Origin: Arenimonas donghaensis DSM 18148 = HO3-R19 | Lineage (GTDB): Bacteria > Pseudomonadota > Gammaproteobacteria > Xanthomonadales > Xanthomonadaceae | DNA: 64,000 nt | NCBI RefSeq assembly: GCF_000743535.1 | Contig: NZ_AVCJ01000012.1 | Coordinates: forward strand, 1 to 64,000 | Direction of reading: 5' to 3' | Part shown: positions 10,832 to 58,098 of the stretch, piece after piece | Layout: each line of letters starts with the position of its first letter | Position numbering within the stretch: the first letter of the stretch is position 1 | Program-made: the position numbers and the translations under genes | The notes under the pieces: generated by a model | What the model was told of the DNA's origin: nothing | Database searches by the model: none | Seen by the model: only the letters and a program-made list of their open reading frames with translations

Positions 10832-11020
10832 AGCAGATGTCAACTGCGGAAGCGAGTGATCAGGAACGAGTCGACAACGCGAGCCACGACACCGAACTCC
10901 ACCCAAGAAATCATAAAGGTGGATCAGGGCAAACATCCCTCCGCGATTGTGGATTCGTCCTCAGGCAACACCCCCATTTCCAACGCCCGGACCGGTTGCG
11001 GCCCGGGCGTTTGTTTTTCC
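10832..11020 (+). ncRNA. Candidate small RNA or attenuated leader upstream of the H1-like gene
   Basis: A transcript starting near 10832 would meet a strong terminator at 10980-11020, giving an RNA of about 185 nt. It contains small hairpins, such as TCCACC/GGTGGA around 10900-10925 and GGA-TTCG-TCC around 10952-10961, plus several GGA triplets. The short open frames inside have no Shine-Dalgarno sequence and look non-coding. It may be a free sRNA, or a 5' leader whose terminator controls the downstream histone-like gene. I do not recognise the family. Confidence 0.5.
10980..11020 (+). terminator. Rho-independent terminator or attenuator
   Basis: A GC-rich stem (AACGCCCGG paired with CCCGGGCGTT, with an additional CCGG/CCGG-type inner pairing) is followed by TTGTTTTT. 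It lies 130 bp before the H1-like start and would end the candidate RNA that begins near 10832. Confidence 0.8.
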
Positions 11021-11150
11021 GGCGCCGCCCCGCGCCGGCAAGAATCCGATCGCCCCGGCATGACCGTGGCGGCGGTACGACCCGGGTCCTGACCCGGGGC
11101 GGTGCCTTTGAGACTGGGCAGTCCAAAAGCCAACTGACGAGGAGTTGACC

Positions 11151-11705
11151 ATGGCTACGAAGAAAGCTGCGAAAAAACCGGCCAAAAAGGCCGCGAAAGC
11201 TAAGAAGTCCGTGAAAAAGGCCGCCAAGACCGCCAAGAAGACGGTGAAGAAGGCAGCCAAGAAGGTCGCTCGCAAGCCGGCGAAGAAGAAGGTCGCCAAG
11301 AAGGCTGCGAAGAAGACCGCGCGCAAGCCGGCCAAGAAGGCCGCGAAGAAGAAGGTTGCCAAGAAGTCTGCGAAGAAGAAGGTCGCCAAGAAGGCAGCCA
11401 AGAAGACTGCGCGCAAGCCCGCCAAGAAGGCAGCCAAGAAAAAGGTCGCCAAGAAGAAGGTAGCCAAGAAGGCCGCCAAGAAGAAGGTCGCCAAGAAGGC
11501 TGCCAAGAAGAAGGTAGCCAAGAAGGCTACCCGCAAGCCGGCCAAGAAGAAGGCGGCCAAGAAGGCTGCCAAGAAGCCGGCGGCCAAGAAGAAGGCGGCC
11601 AAGAAGCCGGCGGCCAAGAAGGCTGCGAAGAAGAAAGCGGCGCGCAAGCCCGCTGCCAAGAAGCCGGCACCGATGCCGGCCGCCCCGGTTGCCCCCGCGC
11701 TGTAA
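11151..11705 (+). CDS. Histone H1-like lysine/alanine-rich DNA-binding protein
   Basis: A 184-residue, extremely basic protein made almost entirely of KKAAKK, KKVAKK and RKPAKK repeats and ending in a Pro/Ala tail. This is the composition of eukaryotic H1 tails and of bacterial H1-like proteins such as Chlamydia Hc2 and the AlgP/AlgR3 type. Such proteins bind and compact DNA without sequence specificity. The ATG at 11151 has a GAGGAG ribosome-binding site 8 bp upstream; an in-frame TTG two codons earlier is less likely. Repeats are also visible at DNA level, so length variation by slippage is plausible. It is preceded by a candidate attenuator. Two SET-domain proteins encoded in this window are possible lysine-modifying partners (inference). 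Confidence 0.88.
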
Positions 11706-11791
11706 GGCGCGACGAGCATCCAAACGCGGTAAAGCTGGACTCTCTCCCCGTGTTGCCCAGGCGGGGAGGGAGACTTTCCAAAGGCACGCAG

Positions 11792-30014: not shown

Positions 30015-32600
30015 ATGTCTAATTTCAATCAGCTGTCCGGCGCGATCCGTTTCGCGCTCCTCGCCGGCGCCGCTTCCACCTTCGCGGCGGTTCCCGCCTT
30101 CGCGCAGGACTCGGAAGACGACGCCGCCACCCTCGAGACCATCGAGGTCACCGGTTCCCGCCTGAAGCGCGCCGAGATCGAAGGCGCCGTTCCGGTCGTC
30201 GTGATCGACCGTGCTGCCATCGACGCCTCGGGTGACGTTTCCGTCGCCGACGTGCTGCGTGACACGACCTTCGCGTCGTTCGGCAACTTCCGTCCGCAGT
30301 CCGGTTCGTCGGCCCAGTCGCTGGCCACCATCGACCTGCGTGGCCTGGGTTCGGGTCGTACCCTCGTGCTGATCGACGGCCGCCGCGCCCCGACCAGCCC
30401 GATGGCTGCCTCCTCGGGCTCCGACCTCAACGCCATCCCGCTGGCTGCCGTTGAGCGCATCGAGATCCTGTCCGACGGCGCCTCCGCCGTGTACGGTTCC
30501 GACGCGATCGGTGGCGTGGTCAACGTCATCACCCGCAAGGACTTCAACGGTGCCGAGCTGCGCTTCGGCGTCGGTTCGACCGAAGTCACCGGCGGCGACC
30601 TGGAAGACAAGTCCGTCGTGTTCGGCTCGTCCTCCGACCGCACCCGCGTGATCGGTGGCGCCTCCAACTCCAAGCGCGGCATGGTCTTCACCCGCGACCA
30701 GATCGGTGGCGACCGTCGCGGCGTTTCGACCTTCGGCAACAACTACTACAACTGGAACACCCAGGCCATTGAAGCCGTTCCGGGCTTCAGCTGCGACGAG
30801 GGCGCGTTCTACTTCCTCGGCAACGGCCTGTGCTCGTTCAACTTCAACTCGGTTGCCGCGAACGAAGCCAAGGTCGACAACACCGCCGTGTTCCTGCGCG
30901 CTGATCACCAGATCAACGACAACTGGACCGTCTACGGTGCCGCCTCGATCACCAAGGTCGAGACCTTCGGTCGTTACGCGCCGGGTCCGGGCGTGCTGAT
31001 CGTCGACGACGGTACCCCGTCCGACATCAACAACGGCGTTGCCTGCGGCGCCGGTGGCTGTGCCCCGGGCACCTCCGACGGCCTGCCGACGTACTACTTC
31101 CACCGCTTCGCCGCGGCCGGCAACCGTGACAACTTCACGGACGCCACCAACGCCGACTACCTGGTGGGCTTCCAGGGCCAGCTGACCGATACCATCGGTA
31201 TCGACTTCGGCCTGCGCCGCACCGACTACAAGTTCCTGGAACTGGGTCGTGGCTACATCGTGACCGACCTGGCCGCCATGGCTGCCAACTCCGGCGCGTA
31301 CAACCTGGCCGATCCGTACGGCACCGATCCGAACGTGCTGGCCGGCATCCAGGCCACCATCAACCGCGAGTCGAGCTGGAAGACCGATGAAATCTACGGC
31401 CTGCTGAGCTTCGACCTGTTCGAGATGGGCGGTGGTACCTCCAACGGCGTGTTCGGCGCCGAGTACCGCGAAGACACCTTCGTCGACCAGTACGACTCCC
31501 TGTCCGAAGCCACCAACCAGTACGGCGGCCCGGCGATCATCGGCTCGGCCGGTAACTCGTCGGCCGGTGGTCGCGACGCCAAGGCCGTGTACTTCGAGTG
31601 GCTGCTGCCGTTCACCAGCACCTTCGACATCACCCTGGCCGGCCGTTGGGACAGCTACAGCGACTACGGCAGCGACTTCTCGCCGAAGGTTGCCATGCGC
31701 TGGCAGCCGATCGAGACCCTGACCTTCCGTGGTTCCTACGGCCAGGGCTTCCGCGCCCCGGGCCTGGACATCCTGACCCAGAAGACCACCTTCTCGGCGG
31801 AGCCGGTCAACGATCCGCAGTCCTGTGCCGCCCTCGGCCAGCCGACCAACTGCCAGCTGCAGGTTGACACCTTCTTCCAGGCCAACCCGGACCTGGCGTC
31901 GGAAAACTCGACCCAGTTCAGCGTCGGCCTGGTGTGGGATCCGCTTGAGTGGCTCGACTTCTCCATCGACTACTACGACATCGAAGTCGAAGACTCGATC
32001 TCGCAGATCGGTGCGCAGGACGTCATCAACTCCGACCTGGATCCGGCCACCTACGGTCCGATCCCGCCGGGCCTGAGCATCACCCGTCGTGCGAACGGCT
32101 CCATCGACAACATCGTCGGCGGCTACGCCAACCAGGGCACCGTCACCACCAACGGTATCGACTTCCGCGCCAACACCCGCTTCGACATGGGTGGCTGGGG
32201 CGAAATGCGCAACCGTCTGACCGTCTCGCACATCGAAAGCTACGAGGTCGATGACCAGCGCGGTTCGGTGACTGAGTTCGCGGGTCGCTTCGGCACCCCG
32301 GATCTGCGCGCCACCCTGCAGAACAACTGGACCTTCGGTGACTTCACCGCGGCCTGGAACGTCAACTACATCGACGGCCAGACCAACAACACCACCGTTG
32401 CTTCGACCATTGGCGGCTACGCCACCAATGACGTGCAGCTGTCGTGGAAGGCCCCGTGGAACGGCACCGTGTCCATCGGCGCGACCAACATCGGCGATCG
32501 TTACCCGCCGCTGAAGGCGTACGACGGCCGTCCGTTCAACTTCTACCTGTACGACGCGTACGGTCGCACCACCTACTTCCGCTACACCCAGACCTTCTGA
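30015..32600 (+). CDS. TonB-dependent outer-membrane receptor (large Xanthomonad type)
   Basis: An 861-residue receptor. The signal peptide ends at about residue 30 (AFAQD), followed by the plug domain (about 50-170, with TIEVTGSRLKRAEIEG, LRGLGSGRTLVLIDGRR and SDAIGGVVNVITRKDF) and a barrel ending with YFRYTQTF, whose terminal Phe is the Bam signal. This subclass is abundant in Xanthomonadaceae and tends to import carbohydrates, peptides or unknown nutrients; the substrate cannot be assigned. Preferred codons such as CGT and GGT are more frequent than in its neighbours, and a strong ribosome-binding site (GGAGAGAGAG) and double terminator frame it. All this suggests very high expression. Confidence 0.93.
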   Translation: MSNFNQLSGAIRFALLAGAASTFAAVPAFAQDSEDDAATLETIEVTGSRLKRAEIEGAVPVVVIDRAAIDASGDVSVADVLRDTTFASFGNFRPQSGSSAQSLATIDLRGLGSGRTLVLIDGRRAPTSPMAASSGSDLNAIPLAAVERIEILSDGASAVYGSDAIGGVVNVITRKDFNGAELRFGVGSTEVTGGDLEDKSVVFGSSSDRTRVIGGASNSKRGMVFTRDQIGGDRRGVSTFGNNYYNWNTQAIEAVPGFSCDEGAFYFLGNGLCSFNFNSVAANEAKVDNTAVFLRADHQINDNWTVYGAASITKVETFGRYAPGPGVLIVDDGTPSDINNGVACGAGGCAPGTSDGLPTYYFHRFAAAGNRDNFTDATNADYLVGFQGQLTDTIGIDFGLRRTDYKFLELGRGYIVTDLAAMAANSGAYNLADPYGTDPNVLAGIQATINRESSWKTDEIYGLLSFDLFEMGGGTSNGVFGAEYREDTFVDQYDSLSEATNQYGGPAIIGSAGNSSAGGRDAKAVYFEWLLPFTSTFDITLAGRWDSYSDYGSDFSPKVAMRWQPIETLTFRGSYGQGFRAPGLDILTQKTTFSAEPVNDPQSCAALGQPTNCQLQVDTFFQANPDLASENSTQFSVGLVWDPLEWLDFSIDYYDIEVEDSISQIGAQDVINSDLDPATYGPIPPGLSITRRANGSIDNIVGGYANQGTVTTNGIDFRANTRFDMGGWGEMRNRLTVSHIESYEVDDQRGSVTEFAGRFGTPDLRATLQNNWTFGDFTAAWNVNYIDGQTNNTTVASTIGGYATNDVQLSWKAPWNGTVSIGATNIGDRYPPLKAYDGRPFNFYLYDAYGRTTYFRYTQTF

Positions 32601-32622
32601 TTTGGGTTTAAACGGTTGATTC

Positions 32623-32654
32623 GAAGGGCCCCGGTAACGGGGCCCTTCTTTTTT
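32623..32654 (+). terminator. First of two tandem Rho-independent terminators
   Basis: An 11-bp stem (GAAGGGCCCCG/CGGGGCCCTTC) with a short GTAA loop is followed by six T residues, 22 bp after the receptor stop. Confidence 0.94.
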
Positions 32655-32662
32655 GCGCGACA

Positions 32663-32689
32663 GCCCCGGTAACGGGGCCCTTCTTTTTT
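32663..32689 (+). terminator. Second tandem terminator, near-copy of the first
   Basis: GCCCCGGTAACGGGGC repeats the first hairpin almost exactly, followed by CCTTC and six T residues. The duplication should make read-through from the receptor gene very rare. Confidence 0.9.
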
Positions 32690-32715
32690 CCCGGACCGCC
32701 CCCGACAATGGCGGC

Positions 32716-33705
32716 ATGGATTTCCCCGGAAACACGCCTGCCGACACGGCCGCCCGGCGCGCCGCCTGGACCGCCTATTGGGCGACCGGGGGGCTGCATT
32801 CCTGCGTCGGCAGCTTCGACGGCAACTACAGCGGCGCCATCGGCGCCTTCTGGCGGGACGTTTTTGACCGCCTGCCCGGCGGGCCCCTGCGCGCGCTCGA
32901 CCTGGCCACCGGCAATGGCGCCCTGCCGCGCTTGCTGTGGGAGCACCGCAAGCAGGTGCCTGGATTGGAAGTGGACGCCGTGGACCTGGCACAGCTGGCT
33001 CCGGGCTGGCTCGACCCCAGCCAGCATGCCGGCCTGCGATTCCACGCTGGCGTAGCGATGGAGAACCTGCCGTTTCCGGACGCCTGCTTCGACCTGGTGG
33101 GCAGCCAGTACGGATTCGAATATGCCCTGCGCGATGCGGCCCTGGCCGAGGCACTTCGCGTGCTCAAGCCCGGCGGGCGACTGGCCCTGGTGATGCACCA
33201 CGCCGACTCGGTGCTGGTGCGGGTGGGCCGGAGCGAGCTGCGGAACCAGGCGATCGTGCTGGCCCCGGAGGGACTGCTGCCGGCCACCGCGGCGGTGCTG
33301 CCCTGGATCGCCAAGGCCCGGGCCGGCATCGACCCCAGCGGCGAGCCCGGCGCGCTCGAGGCGCGCAACGCCTACAACCGGGCGATCCAGGCCCTGGCCA
33401 CCGACATCGCCGGCTCCCCGGCGCCCGATCTGTTGGTCGAGGCCCGCGCCTGGGTCAACCAACTGTTGGCGGGCACCGGGGCCGACCCGGGACCGTCGCT
33501 GGAGAAACTATCGGCTTACCGCGACGGCCTGGTGGCAGCCGGTTTGCGTACCGGCGAACTGATCGAACATGCCCTGGGCGCGGAGCAGCTGCAGTCGCTG
33601 GTCCAGGCGATCCAGGCTGCAAGGCCGGCTGCCCGCGTTGAGGTGGAGACCCTGCAGCAAGCCCAGGGCGTGTTGGGCTGGGGCCTGCGCCTGGAGCCGG
33701 CCTGA
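32716..33705 (+). CDS. Class I SAM-dependent methyltransferase
   Basis: A 329-residue protein with a Rossmann-type SAM-binding core. Motif I is ALDLATGNGALPRLL at about residue 57, an acidic residue ends the next strand (VDAVDLAQL), and VLKPGGRLALVMHH is the usual post-core strand. A helical C-terminal extension of about 130 residues has no recognised family. The methyl acceptor is unknown. The ATG at 32716 lies just behind the tandem terminators, so the gene must have its own promoter. It converges on the TPR-sulfotransferase gene with a 7-bp gap. Confidence 0.85.
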   Translation: MDFPGNTPADTAARRAAWTAYWATGGLHSCVGSFDGNYSGAIGAFWRDVFDRLPGGPLRALDLATGNGALPRLLWEHRKQVPGLEVDAVDLAQLAPGWLDPSQHAGLRFHAGVAMENLPFPDACFDLVGSQYGFEYALRDAALAEALRVLKPGGRLALVMHHADSVLVRVGRSELRNQAIVLAPEGLLPATAAVLPWIAKARAGIDPSGEPGALEARNAYNRAIQALATDIAGSPAPDLLVEARAWVNQLLAGTGADPGPSLEKLSAYRDGLVAAGLRTGELIEHALGAEQLQSLVQAIQAARPAARVEVETLQQAQGVLGWGLRLEPA

Positions 33706-33712
33706 GCGGGGC

Positions 33713-35407
33713 TCAGGCGTCCCCGGGCGCGTCGCCGAGCACGTCCAGCAGCGGACCCAGTTCCGACGCATAGTGCCGCCAGCGCCCGATCGAGCGCGTG
33801 TGCACCGGCTGGCGCACCTGCCAGCGGCTCGGCGTCTGTACCCCGCGCTCGCTGCGATGGAAATCCAGGCAGGCCGGGTCCCAGTCCAGGCCCAGGAAGT
33901 CGAGCGCCCGGCGCGCCTGGGCCTCGGTGTCGGCGGCGACCTCTTCATAGTGAACTTCCAGGATCGGCAGCGACAGCACGGACTGCCAGTGACGCATCAT
34001 CCGGGACTGCAGCCGCACCAGGTGGCCGATGCCGTCCAGGCGCGTGGCCAGGCGCTCGGCCAGGGCGAAGTTCTCGCCATAAATGGAAATCGCGACATCG
34101 CGCGGGTCACGCCGGCACCAGATGACCCGCGCCTTGGGAAACATCAGCGCGACCAGGCCAAGCAGGTAGTAATTCATCGGGTATTTGTCGATGACCCGCG
34201 CGGTGTCCGCCGGTGCCTGCCGAAGGGCCGCCGCCAGGTAGCGCTGCGCGGCAGCGGGAACCGACTCGAGGGTGATGTCCTCGAGGATATGCGGCCACTG
34301 CTGCGGCCGGCCGCGACGCGAGGGCAGGGCGCGGGCGATCAGGGAGACATCCGGCAGTTCGCCGGCGCCATGCACCCGCGGGTGCGCGGCCAGCATCTGC
34401 TCGAGCAGGGTCGTGCCGCTGCGGGGCATGCCGACGATGAACACCGGGCGCTCGTCGGGGTTGCCTGTTCCGGCGGCCCGCTCGAAGAGCGCACGGTCGA
34501 ACACGGCCAGGCTGGCGTCCACGCGACGGGCGAGGTCTTCGACGTCCGGCTCTCCCTGCGCCCGCCGGCGGGCGGCGTTGGCCGCATGCCAGGCCTGCAT
34601 GGCTTGCGGGTAATCGCCGCGACCGTCGTAGACCTTGCCCAGCTCGTAGCCGACCAGGGCGCGTTCGTCGTCGGGCCGCGCGGGGTCGGCCAGGACCGCC
34701 TGCGCTTCGGCGATCCGCGGCTCGGGGGCCTGGCCGCGGCGCAGGCCGAGCAGCCCGGCCAACGGAAACGCCCAGCCCGGCCGCAGCGACAGCGCACGTT
34801 CGTAGGCGGTTTCGGCGCCGTCCCGGCGTCCGCAGATTTCCTCGGCCTGGGCGAAGGCCATCCAGAGCTCGGCCGACGCCGGTTCGCGCTCAAGCGCCTT
34901 CGCGTACAGCGCGCTGGCGGCTTCGGCCTGGTCGAGCCTTGCCAGGACCTCGCCCAGTTTGAGTTCGATGGCCGGGTCGCCGGGCCGGTTCGCCGCCAGC
35001 GCCCGCCACAGGGGCAGGGCGTCAGCGGGGTCGCCGATGTCGAACTCCAGTTGCGCCAGGCGTTCAAGCACCCGGATGTTGCCGGGATCCAGGCCATGGG
35101 CGCGCCGCAGGGGCGCCAGGGCCTCGGCCGCCCGACCGGCGCGAGCCAGGGTGAGGCCGATGAAGTGCCAGCCTTCGGCGAAATCGGGCTGGAGCTCGAC
35201 GCTGGCCTGGAAGTGGTCCAGGGCTTCGGTGGCCCGGCCGACGTGCGCCAGCAGGCAGCCGGTTTCAAAACGCAGCGCCGACGAGCCAGGCACCAGTTCG
35301 CAGGCGCGCTGCATGTGCCGTATCGCCAGGTCGCCGCGGCCAGCGCGCAGGGCGGCGTGGGCCTGCTGCTTTTCCTGGTCGGCGACGGCGGTGGCGGAAG
35401 GCTTCAT
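33713..35407 (-). CDS. TPR-repeat sulfotransferase
   Basis: A 564-residue protein in two parts. Residues about 1-300 are tetratricopeptide repeats (for example LERLAQLEFDIGDPADALPL and LWMAFAQAEEICGRRDGAET). Residues about 320-564 are a sulfotransferase domain with the 5'-phosphosulfate loop VGMPRSGTTLLEQML and the 3'-phosphate site WCRRDPRDVAISIY. The domain resembles tyrosylprotein sulfotransferases, which transfer sulfate from PAPS to proteins; TPRs would bind a protein partner. It is divergent from a 2OG-Fe(II) oxygenase, with 93 bp between starts. The acceptor is unknown. Confidence 0.9.
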   Translation of the reverse strand: MKPSATAVADQEKQQAHAALRAGRGDLAIRHMQRACELVPGSSALRFETGCLLAHVGRATEALDHFQASVELQPDFAEGWHFIGLTLARAGRAAEALAPLRRAHGLDPGNIRVLERLAQLEFDIGDPADALPLWRALAANRPGDPAIELKLGEVLARLDQAEAASALYAKALEREPASAELWMAFAQAEEICGRRDGAETAYERALSLRPGWAFPLAGLLGLRRGQAPEPRIAEAQAVLADPARPDDERALVGYELGKVYDGRGDYPQAMQAWHAANAARRRAQGEPDVEDLARRVDASLAVFDRALFERAAGTGNPDERPVFIVGMPRSGTTLLEQMLAAHPRVHGAGELPDVSLIARALPSRRGRPQQWPHILEDITLESVPAAAQRYLAAALRQAPADTARVIDKYPMNYYLLGLVALMFPKARVIWCRRDPRDVAISIYGENFALAERLATRLDGIGHLVRLQSRMMRHWQSVLSLPILEVHYEEVAADTEAQARRALDFLGLDWDPACLDFHRSERGVQTPSRWQVRQPVHTRSIGRWRHYASELGPLLDVLGDAPGDA

Positions 35408-35500
35408 GCAGGACGGGCGGCTCTCGGGGCGGTCAGTCTAACCGCCCGGCGCTTGTCGTCGCGGCTTAGAATGGCCCATGACCCCGCCGTCGCGACGCCC

Positions 35501-36193
35501 ATGATCAGCAACGAGCTAGACATCAGCCCCTACCGCCAGCGCCTGGCCCAGACCGGCCGGGTGCAGATCCCCGGGTTCCTGCAGGCCGACGCTGCGCAGC
35601 GCCTTGCCGACTGCCTGCGCCGCGAGGTGCCCTGGACGACGGCCGAGCGCGGCCAGCCCGATTCGCCGCCCTGGACCGGCGACAGCGCCCGCCAGCGCAC
35701 GCCCGAGGCCTATCGCCGCGCCGCCGCCGGCTTCCATTTCGTCTACGACCGCTACCTGATGGTCGAAGCCATGCGCGAAGGCCGCGATCCGCAGCTGCTG
35801 CTGCACGCGGTGCTGGCGTTCTTCAACAGCCCGCCCTACCTGGAATTCATCCGCGAACTCACCGGCGACACCTCGCTGGCGATGGTGGGTGCCCAGGCCA
35901 CCCGCTACCTGCCGGGACAGTTCCTGCGCGTGCACGACGACCGCCACGAGGAAGAGGCGCGGCGTTATGCCTACGTGCTCAACCTCTCGCGCAACTGGGA
36001 GGTGGACTGGGGCGGGCTGCTGCACTTCGTCGACGAAGACGGCAAGCACCTGGACGCGATGCTGCCGCGCTTCAATTCGCTGAGCCTGTTCAAGGTGCCG
36101 GCGAAGCACTTCGTCGGCGTGGTCGCGCCCTGGGCGCAGGAGCCCCGGCTGGCGATCACCGGCTGGTGGCATGCGCCGCCGGCGACCCCGTAA
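35501..36193 (+). CDS. 2-oxoglutarate/Fe(II)-dependent oxygenase (prolyl-hydroxylase-like)
   Basis: A 230-residue double-stranded beta-helix oxygenase. The iron-binding HxD motif lies in FLRVHDDRHEEE at about residue 148. A distal His is in AKHFVGVVAPW and the 2OG-binding Arg in RLAITGWWH. Together with GGLLHFVDEDG this matches the Tpa1/OFD1-like prolyl hydroxylases, so it probably hydroxylates a protein side chain. The start is uncertain: ATG 35501 gives the family-like N-terminus, while ATG 35471 would add ten residues. It is divergent from the TPR-sulfotransferase gene. Confidence 0.85.
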   Translation: MISNELDISPYRQRLAQTGRVQIPGFLQADAAQRLADCLRREVPWTTAERGQPDSPPWTGDSARQRTPEAYRRAAAGFHFVYDRYLMVEAMREGRDPQLLLHAVLAFFNSPPYLEFIRELTGDTSLAMVGAQATRYLPGQFLRVHDDRHEEEARRYAYVLNLSRNWEVDWGGLLHFVDEDGKHLDAMLPRFNSLSLFKVPAKHFVGVVAPWAQEPRLAITGWWHAPPATP

Positions 36194-54048: not shown

Positions 54049-56085
54049 TCAGTCGTCGTCGTGTCGAGGCCGGTAGGCCTCCACCAGCTGCTTTTGCACG
54101 GCACCGGGCACGGGCTCGTAGTGGCTGAACTCGAGCTCGTAGCGGCCGCGGCCGGCGGTGGCGCCCTTGAGTTCGGTGGCGTAGTCGCCCAGTTCCGACA
54201 GCGGCACCTGCGCCTTGACCAGCATTTCGCCGCCGCGACCGGCGTCGGTGCCGTGGATGCGCGCGCGCTTGCCGGCGAGCTGGCCGGTGATGTCGCCCAT
54301 GTGTTCCTCGGGCACCGCCACCACCAGGTCGACGATGGGCTCGAGCACCTGCGGCCGCGCCTTGAGGATCGCGTCCAGGAAGGCCTTCTTGCCGGCCGCG
54401 ACGAAGGCGACTTCCTTGGAGTCGACGCTGTGATACTTGCCGTCGTACACGGTCACGCGCACGTCCTGCAGCTGGTAGCCGGCGATGGCGCCGCCGTCGA
54501 GCACCTGGCGCACGCCCTTTTCCACGGCCGGGATGAACTGGCCGGGGATGGTGCCGCCCTTCACCGCATCGACGAACTCGAAGCCCTTGCCGCGCTCGAG
54601 CGGTTCGATGCGCAGGAAAACCTCGCCGAACTGGCCGGCGCCGCCGGTCTGTTTCTTGTGCCGGTAGTGGCCCTCGGCCTGGGCGCCGATGGTCTCGCGG
54701 TAGGCGATGCGCGGGGGATGCGTGGCCACGTCGACGCCGTAGCGCTCGCGGATGCGTTCGAGCATCACCCGCAGGTGCAGTTCGCCCAGTCCGCGGATGA
54801 CGGTTTCGTTGAGTTCGGTGTTGTGCTCGACCAGGAAACCCGGGTCCTCCTCGGCCAGCTTGTGCAGGGTCGTGGCGAGCTTCTGCTCCTGGCCGCGGGT
54901 GGCGGCTTCGATGGCCAGCCCGAACATCGGCTTCGGGAAATCCAGCGGCTTGAGCCGGATGTCGTCCTCGTCGTGGCTGTCGTGCAAGACGGCATCGAAG
55001 TGGATATCGTCCACCTTGGCCACCGCGGCGATGTCGCCGGGCAGGGCCTGGTCGACCTCGACGTGGTCCTTGCCCTGCAGCTTGAAAAGATGCCCCACCT
55101 TGAACGGCTTGCGGCCATCGTCGATGAACAGCTGGCTGTCCCTGCGCACCGTGCCCTGGAACACCCGGAACACGCTCAGTTTCCCGACGAAGGGGTCGTT
55201 GACGATCTTGAACACGTCGGCGACCACGTGGGCGTCGGGGTCGGGCTGGGCCGCGAAGGGCTGGCCGTTCTTCTCGAACGGCGGCGGGTTGCCTTCCATC
55301 GGATTGGGAAAAAGTTTCTCCGCCAGGTCCAGCAGCTCGGTCACCCCGACGCCGTTGCGCGCCGACACGAAGCACACCGGCACCAGGTGGCCCTCGCGCA
55401 GGCACTGTTCGAAGGCGTCGTGCAGCGCCTGCCCGGACAGGCCTTCCTCGCCGTCTTCCAGGTAGCGCTCCATCACTTGTTCGTTGATCTCCACCACCTG
55501 GTCGACGATGCGCTGGTGGGCATCGGCCACCGGGCCCAGGTCGGAGTCGCCTTCGGGATTGAAGAAACAGTCGACCACCCGCGTGCCCTTGTCGGCGGGC
55601 AGGTTGATCGGCAGGCATTCGGGGCCGAAGGCGTCGCGCAGTTCCTCGAGCAACACCGGCAGGTGGCCGGGGTCGACGTCGATCTTGTTGACCACCAGCA
55701 CCCGGCACAGGTTGCGGGCCCGGGCGTACTCCATCATCCGGCGGGTGCCGTATTCGACGCCGGTGGCGGCGTTGACCACCACGGCCACCGTTTCCACCGC
55801 CGAGAACGCCGACAGGCTGGGTCCGCGGAAGTCGGGATAGCCCGGGGTGTCGATCAGGTTGACGTGGATGCCGGCGTGGTCGGTGCTGGCGATGGCGGTG
55901 TTGAGCGAATGACCGCGGGCCTTTTCCATCGGATCGAAGTCCGACACCGTGCTGCCGCGTTCCAGGCTGCCTGCTGCGGGAATCGCGCCGCCGGCAAACA
56001 GCAGGGCTTCGAACAGGGTGGTCTTGCCGGCGCCGGAGTGGCCTGCCAGGGCCACGTTGCGGATTTGCGCTGTGCTGTACGACAT
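54049..56085 (-). CDS. Elongation factor G-like GTPase (EF-G2 type)
   Basis: A 678-residue translational GTPase with EF-G architecture. In the G domain, G1 is GHSGAGKTTL at about residue 17, G3 is DTPGYPDF, and G4 is NKID; domains II-V follow (QTGGAGQFGEVFLRIEPLER in domain IV; GYQLQDVRVTVYDGKYHSVD). The G1 motif reads GHSGAGKT rather than the AHIDAGKT of canonical EF-G, as in the EF-G2 paralogues of several bacteria. Canonical fusA is normally within the str operon, absent here. The role of EF-G2 is not settled. GGGAGGAA precedes the ATG. Confidence 0.92.
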   Translation of the reverse strand: MSYSTAQIRNVALAGHSGAGKTTLFEALLFAGGAIPAAGSLERGSTVSDFDPMEKARGHSLNTAIASTDHAGIHVNLIDTPGYPDFRGPSLSAFSAVETVAVVVNAATGVEYGTRRMMEYARARNLCRVLVVNKIDVDPGHLPVLLEELRDAFGPECLPINLPADKGTRVVDCFFNPEGDSDLGPVADAHQRIVDQVVEINEQVMERYLEDGEEGLSGQALHDAFEQCLREGHLVPVCFVSARNGVGVTELLDLAEKLFPNPMEGNPPPFEKNGQPFAAQPDPDAHVVADVFKIVNDPFVGKLSVFRVFQGTVRRDSQLFIDDGRKPFKVGHLFKLQGKDHVEVDQALPGDIAAVAKVDDIHFDAVLHDSHDEDDIRLKPLDFPKPMFGLAIEAATRGQEQKLATTLHKLAEEDPGFLVEHNTELNETVIRGLGELHLRVMLERIRERYGVDVATHPPRIAYRETIGAQAEGHYRHKKQTGGAGQFGEVFLRIEPLERGKGFEFVDAVKGGTIPGQFIPAVEKGVRQVLDGGAIAGYQLQDVRVTVYDGKYHSVDSKEVAFVAAGKKAFLDAILKARPQVLEPIVDLVVAVPEEHMGDITGQLAGKRARIHGTDAGRGGEMLVKAQVPLSELGDYATELKGATAGRGRYELEFSHYEPVPGAVQKQLVEAYRPRHDDD

Positions 56086-56238
56086 GAGGCCGTTCCTCCC
56101 GAGGGTGGGTGGTTGGGCCGTCATGGTCGGCGGCGCGATGGCGCTGCCTTTTCGGTCGTCGAACGCGACCGCGCGTCGGTCATGGCGGACGCCCGGCCGG
56201 GGCCGGGGCGACTAGCCTCCTACTCCCGCCGGCCCGGG

Positions 56239-58098
56239 TCAACCGGCGGCGCGGGCCGCCCGGTCGACGGTGGCCTGGATGGCCGCCAGGCGCGGTTCGA
56301 TGTCGGCGGCGTGCTTGCGCCACTTGTCCGGGGCCGGCGTCGTGAGTGTGTAGCGGGACAGCGGCAGGACGCCGCCCAGGTCGCGGTCCCAGCCCCAGCC
56401 GGCCCAGGCGCCCAGCCGTTCCACGGTGCCCTGCGGGTCGGCCAGGAAGCGGTCGTGGTCGATGCCCGTCCAGTCGGCGCCGTCCAGGGCCTGGAGGTCG
56501 TCGAGCAACAGGCGGGTGGCGGTTTCCCATTGCCCGGTGACGACGTCGGCCAGCGGCTTGCCCGACAGCTCGCGCCAGCCGGGCACCAGCAGGAACGACC
56601 AGGGCAGGCCCTGCCAGCCGGGCAGGTTGGGGTACATGACGAAGCGCCCGGACTGCCAGCCTTCGATCATGCTGGCCAGCACCTGGCGCGGGTCGCGGTG
56701 CAGGTAGATGAAGCGGGCGTCCGGGAACACCTTGCGCAGGAAGGGAATGCGCAGGGCGTTTTTCGGGGTTTTTTCCAGCAGGCGCACCGCGGCCTTCCCG
56801 GGCGAGTGGCCGTTACGGTCGCGCAGCGCGTCGAAGAAGCGCTGGCGCAGCTGCGCGACCACCTCCGGCGACGCGTCGTCGGCGAGCAGCCGGTTCGAAT
56901 CATGGCCGCGCTGCGACGGCGCCAGGCCGGGTACGCCTTCGATGAGGCTGTGGCTCTCGTTGCCGATGCTGAATACGCCCGGCGCCTTGACCAGGGTCTC
57001 GAACATGAGCGTGGAACCCGAACGCGGCGGGCTGACGATGAACACCGGGCGTTCGAAGCTCGCCGCCGTTGCCTCGCGCCTGACGACGGCCGGCGCCGCT
57101 GCGCCGGGCAGCGCCGGCGCGTCGCCGTGCACGTCCTTGCGCGCGACCTGCATCGCGCTGCCCTGGTCGCCCAGGGCCACGCCGAAGACGTACATGTCGA
57201 GCATGTACATCAGCCCGACTTCGTTGCGCAGGCCGATTTCGCCGGCGCCGCGGGCCAGGGCGTCGGCCCGGCCCTGTTCCAGCAGTTCGCGGTAGCGCGG
57301 CCAGCCGGCGCTGGTTTCCCCGAACGCCGACCACAGCGCATGCCAGCGCCGCGAGAAGTCGACCAGGCCCTGCTGGACCACGGCCAGGCGCGGGTGCGGC
57401 ACGGCTTCGCCGAGCAGGAAGACGAAATGTTCGCGGATCTCCCAGGGCGTCATCACCACCGGCAGGTTGACGTTTTCGAAGTCGATGGCGACGTCGCCCT
57501 TGCCGGCCAGCGGCACCGGCCGCGGCTGCCAGCCCGGAATGCTGCGCCCGGCGGGACGGCCGCGCGCGATCAGGTCCCAGAGCCCGGCGCCGCCGACGGT
57601 GTCGGCGACCAGGTGGATGCGGGTGCTGGCATTGCCGTTGAGCACGCGGTGCCGCGACCAGGTGTCGAAGATCCAGCACTCGCCGGCCTTCATGTTGGTT
57701 TCGCTGCCACCGACCTGGAAGCGTACGTCCGGCGTCGTGGTCACCGGCACGTGCACGCGCATGCGTTCGCGCCAGTAGTAGTTGGTGTCCACGTGTTCGG
57801 TGACTTCGGCCTGGCCCGACAGGCGCATCAGCCGCGACCGGCCCCAGGTGGCGCCCAGCGCCGACAGCACTTCCTTCACCCGCGGCAGGCTTTCGAGCGC
57901 CGGGGTGGGGCGCATGTCGCCGGCCAGGTCGTCGTTGTCCGGGTCGCCACCAGTGGCGACCAGGGTAAGGGCGCTGTTGCCGGGCAGCTTGTTCGGATGC
58001 GGTCGCCAGTGCGATTCGTCGACCTGGGCGATTTCACTGGCCAGGGCCTCGGCGTCGAAGGACACCGGCAGCTGGAGGAAGGGGACCTGGAGTTTCAT
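56239..58098 (-). CDS. Fusion of aspartyl/asparaginyl beta-hydroxylase and sulfotransferase
   Basis: A 619-residue two-domain protein. Residues about 1-190 are an aspartyl/asparaginyl beta-hydroxylase (2OG/Fe(II)) domain: the HxD motif in EVTEHVDTNYYW, MRVHVPVTTTPDVRF, AGECWIFDTWSRHRVLN with the distal His, and RIHLVADTVG with the 2OG-binding Arg. After a helical link, residues about 345-600 are a sulfotransferase domain with the PAPS loop FIVSPPRSGSTLMFETL and the 3'-phosphate site YLHRDPRQVLAS. Both active sites look intact. The fusion predicts that hydroxylation and sulfation act on one pathway or substrate. No signal peptide is seen. The gene is divergent from the osmC-like gene. Confidence 0.88.
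   Translation of the reverse strand: MKLQVPFLQLPVSFDAEALASEIAQVDESHWRPHPNKLPGNSALTLVATGGDPDNDDLAGDMRPTPALESLPRVKEVLSALGATWGRSRLMRLSGQAEVTEHVDTNYYWRERMRVHVPVTTTPDVRFQVGGSETNMKAGECWIFDTWSRHRVLNGNASTRIHLVADTVGGAGLWDLIARGRPAGRSIPGWQPRPVPLAGKGDVAIDFENVNLPVVMTPWEIREHFVFLLGEAVPHPRLAVVQQGLVDFSRRWHALWSAFGETSAGWPRYRELLEQGRADALARGAGEIGLRNEVGLMYMLDMYVFGVALGDQGSAMQVARKDVHGDAPALPGAAAPAVVRREATAASFERPVFIVSPPRSGSTLMFETLVKAPGVFSIGNESHSLIEGVPGLAPSQRGHDSNRLLADDASPEVVAQLRQRFFDALRDRNGHSPGKAAVRLLEKTPKNALRIPFLRKVFPDARFIYLHRDPRQVLASMIEGWQSGRFVMYPNLPGWQGLPWSFLLVPGWRELSGKPLADVVTGQWETATRLLLDDLQALDGADWTGIDHDRFLADPQGTVERLGAWAGWGWDRDLGGVLPLSRYTLTTPAPDKWRKHAADIEPRLAAIQATVDRAARAAG

Follow-up and report, generated by a model that had tools for sequence, protein, structure and literature searches.

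The window, by which we mean the whole stretch of 64,000 nucleotides analysed here, carries on its minus strand a gene running from an ATG at 58098 to a stop codon ending at 56239, with an ORF translation of 619 aa. As the initial annotation had claimed, its single frame joins two enzyme domains. PF05118 (Asp_Arg_Hydrox) matches residues 62-167 with E 7.3e-15 and 55.6 bits against a cut-off of 22.6, and PF13469 (Sulfotransfer_3) matches residues 351-571 with E 2.1e-25 and 90.7 bits against a cut-off of 27; with these E-values chance is excluded for both. The protein begins with an Fe(II)/2OG domain of the Asp/Asn-hydroxylase type, continues with a helical segment and a disordered linker, and ends with a PAPS sulfotransferase. 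Below, HYD denotes the hydroxylase subfamily of this fusion, ST its sulfotransferase subfamily and HYD-ST the fusion itself, and L and G numbers are handles for loci and genomes. The gene is flanked by an EF-G-like gene on one side (54049-56124, minus strand) and, near 58.2 kb on the other, by a divergent OsmC-like gene, and stands alone between these two, which were named by eye. The protein has no long hydrophobic stretch and is therefore probably cytosolic. The features are listed below, the last two being possible partners only.

56239..58098, minus strand: whole HYD-ST gene, 619 aa; highest 19-residue mean hydropathy 1.05
57514..58098, minus strand: Fe(II)/2OG oxygenase domain, residues 1-195 (PF05118, AlphaFold2, Foldseek)
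57787..57795, minus strand: H102-x-D104, predicted iron ligands, 66/66 in alignment A2
57649..57651, minus strand: H150, predicted distal iron ligand, 66/66 in alignment A2
57619..57621, minus strand: R160, predicted 2OG-binding Arg, 66/66 in alignment A2
57133..57513, minus strand: helical segment, residues 196-322 (AlphaFold2 model; stand-alone HYD lengths)
57064..57132, minus strand: linker, residues 323-345 (low model confidence; gap-rich in alignment)
56242..57063, minus strand: PAPS sulfotransferase domain, residues 346-619 (PF13469; profile matches to CurM ST and TPST1)
57010..57030, minus strand: PPRSGST, residues 357-363, predicted 5'-phosphosulfate-binding loop; R359 and S362 66/66
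56956..56958, minus strand: E381, 66/66; paired by HMMER with the second Glu of the TPST1 GEET
56671..56697, minus strand: R468...S476, predicted 3'-phosphate-binding segment; R468 and S476 66/66
30015..32600, plus strand: TonB-dependent receptor (PF00593/PF07715), possible partner by analogy with relatives
33713..35407, minus strand: TPR-sulfotransferase (PF13469, E 9.9e-45, plus TPRs), possible partner

HxD, the distal His, the 2OG-binding Arg, PPRSGST and HRDPRQV (residues 467-473) are all found as first annotated, and the expectation that active residues would be kept across orthologues holds in all 66 aligned fusions. Alignment A2 consists of the window protein and 65 relatives, drawn from 70 candidates of 590-670 aa containing no X and thinned at 92% identity, and it leaves out called fusions of other lengths. 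Invariant in all its sequences are H102, D104, R114, H116, H150, R160, R359, S362, E381, H383, K443, R468, S476 and K592. The Glu of GEET that pairs with E381 has a catalytic role in TPST1. The predicted 2OG-binding Arg lies ten residues after the distal His, like R168 after H158 in cis-P3H according to PMC9968057.

Among the fetched loci, the iron triad is kept in 119 of 123 HYD proteins, and the four exceptions are HYD-DUF4915 fusions without ST. A fifth such fusion (L129 in G128) retains the triad, and lone HYDs are intact; a rule that HYD decays wherever ST is missing was therefore rejected, as judged without six further long-frame cases (G133, G138, G156, G194, G198 and G251). The scored residues are kept in 105 of 107 ST proteins, 12 of these with one small loop change. 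In a congener (L029, G003) HYD-ST is broken up like a pseudogene, its ST being a fragment, and in G306 an open-frame ST (L144:6980-7837) has decayed at the positions of S362, T363, E381, S476, K592 and W593 while the adjoining HYD is intact. Compared with the congeners L003, L004 and L006, dN/dS is 0.22, 0.22 and 0.49 for the hydroxylase domain and 0.30, 0.29 and 0.43 for the sulfotransferase, indicating purifying selection on both halves.

Predicted structure and closest solved relatives

The full-length AlphaFold2 model (66 sequences) has a mean pLDDT of 90.9 and a pTM of 0.58, with residues 325-343 below 50; two domains are predicted confidently, their relative orientation without confidence. 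Given this pTM and the disordered linker, the model lends no support to a common channel between the two pockets. Residues 1-321 modelled alone (43 sequences) reach pLDDT 94.1 and pTM 0.90. Stand-alone HYD proteins are 284-375 aa long, so that the helical segment belongs with the hydroxylase.

For the hydroxylase part, the top Foldseek match is L-proline cis-4-hydroxylase (4p7w, E 2.9e-10), followed by a nucleoside-antibiotic hydroxylase (7v4o), proline 3-hydroxylase and AspH (5apa, E 4.3e-7). In a viral structure library, phage and giant-virus PF05118-type proteins are the top matches. Profile A2 against solved proteins gives the CurM ST (1.5e-13), TPST1 (7.4e-12), cis-P4H (2.3e-10), TPST2 (3.5e-9) and others, with AspH unmatched at E 0.01. 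The name Asp/Asn beta-hydroxylase, given by the initial annotation, thus stands as far as the PF05118 match goes, but it is the name of the Pfam family only and the closest solved relative is L-proline cis-4-hydroxylase. AspH, which hydroxylates Asp/Asn in EGF-like domains, shares with HYD-ST the PF05118 membership and the core fold. It has an iron site of two His, whereas HYD-ST has an acidic iron ligand in addition, and Pfam finds no TPR domain in HYD-ST.

In L-proline cis-4-hydroxylase, HxD...H and the following Arg align with those of HYD-ST, and it is the top solved match of the hydroxylase by both profile and fold. As this enzyme acts on free proline, HYD might hydroxylate proline or another free amino acid, with ST sulfating the product. 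However, at position 107 of HYD-ST, where cis-P4H has Glu, 63 of the 66 sequences have Tyr and the other 3 His, and in a cis-P3H model (PMC9968057) an acidic residue at this place, three positions past the iron Asp (E112), binds the substrate amino group. Superposition on the shorter Foldseek targets gives ~3 Angstrom, and on 4p7w over the full length an rmsd of 15, so that the helical segment is probably placed differently. The hydroxylase of HYD-ST is joined to a sulfotransferase, unlike 4p7w. We consider a free amino acid as substrate very unlikely.

For the sulfotransferase, the best profile match is the CurM domain (4gbm), which acts on an aliphatic hydroxyl. CurM is a member of a polyketide pathway, whereas no such genes were seen near HYD-ST among the 27 proteins scanned with Pfam in all. 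TPST1 and TPST2 share the PAPS loops and the aligned Glu (Foldseek 3ap3, E 5.3e-8), but at 19-20% identity, and HYD-ST differs in being bacterial, fused and probably cytosolic. Since the nearest solved relatives include both CurM and the tyrosine enzymes TPST1/2, the sequence does not name the sulfate acceptor. Overall, HYD-ST is a novel pairing of already known enzyme families.

Spread of the fusion and coupling of HYD with ST

In a single scan, genome contigs yielded 339 relatives, and all 80 kept of these match across both domains; they span Arenimonas, Pseudoxanthomonas, Luteimonas, Rhodanobacter, Dyella, Rudaea, Dokdonella and Caulobacterales. In the window's genus the presence is patchy, with full-length fusions in 7 of 27 genomes, a lone HYD in G005, G016, G017 and G025, and HYD and ST at two contig ends in G019. 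In a sample of the phylum, 7 of 398 genomes match at E 1e-40, the window's own included, and the family therefore appears to be narrow. Pfam confirms a HYD-ST-DUF4915 protein of three domains in two genomes (L040, L030), and L147 and L148 look alike by BLAST. DUF4915/TIGR03032 is joined to HYD-ST or to HYD alone in L040, L030, L041, L129, L134, L160 and L161, and in L116 (157-3041) HYD and HYD-ST genes lie in tandem with a 4-base overlap.

Among 299 genomes of the order searched at E 1e-25, HYD is found in 54, ST in 41, both in 31 and neither in 235 (Fisher p 3.7e-19). All 34 ST copies in HYD genomes have HYD directly upstream on the same strand, with match ends 1-210 nt apart, and in seven both-bearing genomes (G028, G031, G117, G176, G226, G301 and G306) the two are separate genes. 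In the HYD tree of 67 rows, which leaves out the short row L035 and in which rows above 72% identity with the same label were thinned, the label 'fused' needs 10 changes, 7 of them forced by starred branches, a count that may be one or two too high if L029, which is broken, and L039, at a contig end, carry the wrong label. Among the ten genomes having ST without HYD, another PF05118 gene lies directly upstream of ST in three (G071, G118 and G142). Some PF05118 gene is present in all ten, a figure of little weight since 202 of the 299 genomes have one.

Every ST copy in the both-bearing genomes being directly downstream of HYD, and the active residues being invariant, the view that HYD and ST serve one shared pathway is well supported by these comparisons. 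The claim that the fusion joins steps of one process is thereby supported, the switching between fused and separate genes and the other PF05118 genes beside ST pointing the same way. An operon accident kept by inheritance, with enzymes having no common substrate, would fit the occurrence of each enzyme alone; yet the pair switches between fused and separate states with adjacency kept, and both halves are under purifying selection, and we think such an accident very unlikely.

HYD is found without this ST in 23 of its 54 genomes, and ST without HYD in 10 of 41. The HYD-only relatives, together with the decayed ST adjoining an intact HYD in G306, show at the level of gene content that the coupling is not obligatory, and the frequent retention of HYD without ST suggests that hydroxylation is useful on its own. 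The interpretation first proposed is partly supported: the idea of one shared process holds up, and these cases speak against a strict two-step enzyme. The strict form, in which ST would sulfate the very hydroxyl that HYD has placed on a peptide side chain, overlaps with our main proposal, and we judge it possible, if on the unlikely side. It would agree with the coupling and fixed order of HYD and ST, with the different-subfamily PF05118 enzyme beside ST in three genomes, and with CurM as the best-scoring solved relative. However, TPST1 scores nearly as well as CurM, making Tyr an equally fair acceptor, the AlphaFold2 model fixes no domain orientation, and the lone HYDs (10 of the 23 genomes having long frames like the four DUF4915 fusions examined), the STs without subfamily HYD and the decayed ST of G306 also count against it.

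Gene neighbours and the search for a substrate

Neighbours of the fusion were counted in the 76 of 80 loci with the target gene called; the gene caller missed the target in the other 4, and of 60 further loci there were 12 in which it tagged no target; these were checked by tblastn. Pfam was run on 27 proteins and NCBIfam on 11, and other gene names come from BLAST to a few probes, from a home-made receptor profile or by eye. Of the slots up to 3 genes away from the fusion, 33 of 395 hold a TPR-sulfotransferase (TPR-ST), as against 6 of 478 slots at a distance of 4-10 genes (p 4.7e-7), and the enrichment persists after dereplication to 25 loci (8/134 vs 0/161, p 0.0016). For TonB-dependent receptors the enrichment is weak (20/395 vs 10/478 slots, p 0.024) and is no longer significant after dereplication (4/134 vs 1/161, p 0.18). 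At a distance of up to four genes, TPR-sulfotransferases are present at 22 of the 76 loci, receptors at 20, thiC-like genes at 22 and pyrophosphatase-like genes at 21, some loci having several; the last two kinds were named by eye, and they mean that much of the context is an ordinary housekeeping location.

Around lone HYDs, as sampled in the order, receptors are found more consistently than around the fusion. In the 13 HYD-only genomes other than those with long frames, a receptor lies within three genes in 10 (the exceptions being G128, G298 and G305), against an expected proximity of ~5% by our rough estimate (346 Plug matches in ~47 Mb of 12 HYD-bearing genomes). Six of the ten have the order wHTH regulator, AraC regulator, receptor, HYD, with regulators Pfam-checked in L046 only, and in the window's genus no receptor was found near the lone HYD at L031, L032 and L034. 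The receptor tree needs 9 label changes, 8 of them forced, and an association inherited as one block was rejected. The label is, however, no more clustered than in shuffles (143/500), so that the tree neither proves nor excludes functional pairing.

In G667, an alphaproteobacterium-like genome of the same phylum as the window and of another class, a TonB-dependent receptor, a Sulfotransfer_2 gene, a second PF05118 gene, a TPR-ST and HYD follow in a row on one strand (L205:8805-15796). In all seven ST-only genomes of family f7 a short PF05118 gene adjoins a receptor (a receptor fragment at the contig end in L209), and in five of them a TPR-sulfotransferase lies on its other flank. At four f7 loci (L145, L146, L138 and L140) HYD and/or ST follows secF at the end of a tgt-yajC-secD-secF run, Pfam-confirmed in L145 and named by eye in the others; among the other f7 loci, as far as checked, not all have secF. 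All f7 cases come from a single family, and so do the secF cases, which means few independent events. The partner hydroxylase in L064 carries a TPR domain by Pfam. Near f7 receptor/hydroxylase/TPR-ST groups, three proteins alike by eye, perhaps beta-propellers, are found (L038:6916-7800, L208:2302-4854 and L210:10801-11283), the first of them having no Pfam or NCBIfam match.

In the window itself the nearest receptor is 24 kb from HYD-ST, and it clusters (100/100) with those Pseudoxanthomonas receptors that lie three genes away from HYD-ST (L048/L055). Positions 30015-36193 hold this receptor, a methyltransferase-like gene named by eye, the TPR-sulfotransferase on the minus strand and, at 35501-36193, a 2OG-Fe(II) oxygenase (PF13661). 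Receptor, sulfotransferase and oxygenase thus come together a second time, at 20 kb from HYD-ST. Two of the three TPR-sulfotransferases in the genome are beside or near a receptor, and an APS kinase is present, so that PAPS can be made. Elsewhere in the window, 10961-11719 is a low-complexity frame, maybe the antisense of a Lys/Ala-rich repeat.

The initial annotation had suggested a secreted peptide as the substrate, by comparison with RaxST, which sulfates a tyrosine of RaxX in Xanthomonas. The likeness would lie in a bacterial sulfotransferase from the same order; we know of no hydroxylase in the Rax system, and no small precursor ORF was identified near HYD-ST. When the 838 short intergenic ORFs lying up to 2 kb from HYD were compared, no family extended beyond 4 loci, which counts against the RaxX analogy, although a fast-evolving precursor could escape such a search. 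A conserved hydrophobic ORF of ~53 aa is seen near HYD-ST in Pseudoxanthomonas-type loci (L026/L068, L049 and L057).

The recurrence of receptor genes beside hydroxylases is also what one would see if the pair tailored a small molecule or ribosomal peptide (a siderophore, a lasso peptide or other) whose synthesis takes place elsewhere in the cell, and the nearby receptors imported the product, and CurM, the best solved ST relative, comes from a polyketide pathway. A gene-cluster table in PMC10040529 lists for Pontixanthobacter lasso B2 (1738), sulfotransferase (1741), aspartyl beta-hydroxylase (1742), a second sulfotransferase (1744), PqqD (1746) and asparagine synthase (1747), and the near-consecutive numbers suggest adjacency in a lasso-peptide-like gene run. 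Sulfotransferases and an aspartyl beta-hydroxylase under neighbouring numbers were found nowhere else in the literature consulted. However, lasso B2 (PF13471) has 0 matches in the window's own genome and passes the cut-off in 8 of the 22 genomes searched out of the 31 with the pair, the sole case on the pair's contig being ~79 kb away (G255); lasso-peptide tailoring as a general role was rejected on these counts. With no precursor family above 4 loci and no peptide- or polyketide-assembly genes among the Pfam-scanned neighbours, we regard the tailoring of such a product as rather unlikely.

Proposed role

Our tentative preference, held with less than even confidence and resting on sequence comparison, is that HYD-ST would be a cytosolic bifunctional enzyme, in which an Fe(II)/2OG hydroxylase (HxD...H) and a PAPS sulfotransferase, joined by a flexible linker, hydroxylate and sulfate one exported or receptor-linked polypeptide. 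Both activities would belong to a single pathway and share their substrate, most likely a polypeptide tied to the outer membrane. This could be a TonB-dependent receptor itself or a protein or peptide that such a receptor handles, and its modification in the cytosol would precede export. The receptor and Sec neighbours in some relatives and the TPR domains on partner enzymes hint at a protein handled at the envelope. As TPR-sulfotransferases, second PF05118 hydroxylases and receptors recur near the pair in relatives, the enzyme is probably one of a set of such modifiers. Against the proposal count the isolated position of the window gene, with its nearest receptor 24 kb off, the weak receptor enrichment around the fusion, and the lone HYDs of the window's genus that have no receptor close by.

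Within this proposal the two steps may be placed differently. One option, by analogy with plant peptides, is that a Tyr is sulfated and another residue of the same chain hydroxylated; tyrosine sulfation and proline hydroxylation are named as the common modifications of plant peptides in PMC11253845. The most specific version, in which TonB-dependent receptors or exported envelope proteins would be hydroxylated and sulfated in the cytosol before export, the sulfate being placed on the new hydroxyl by the fused enzyme together with TPR-sulfotransferase partners, seems to us quite improbable as a whole. A search of the full-text literature by title and abstract, with subscription papers and preprints outside its scope, returned no description of a HYD-ST fusion or of combined hydroxylation-sulfation.

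If both steps do act on one chain, the modification would be a combined hydroxylation-sulfation. The fused gene encodes a single protein with two confidently predicted domains, which makes the role of bacterial sulfotransferases and PF05118 oxygenases near outer-membrane receptors directly testable, and knowledge of its substrate would also illuminate DUF4915/TIGR03032, the third domain of unknown function in some relatives.
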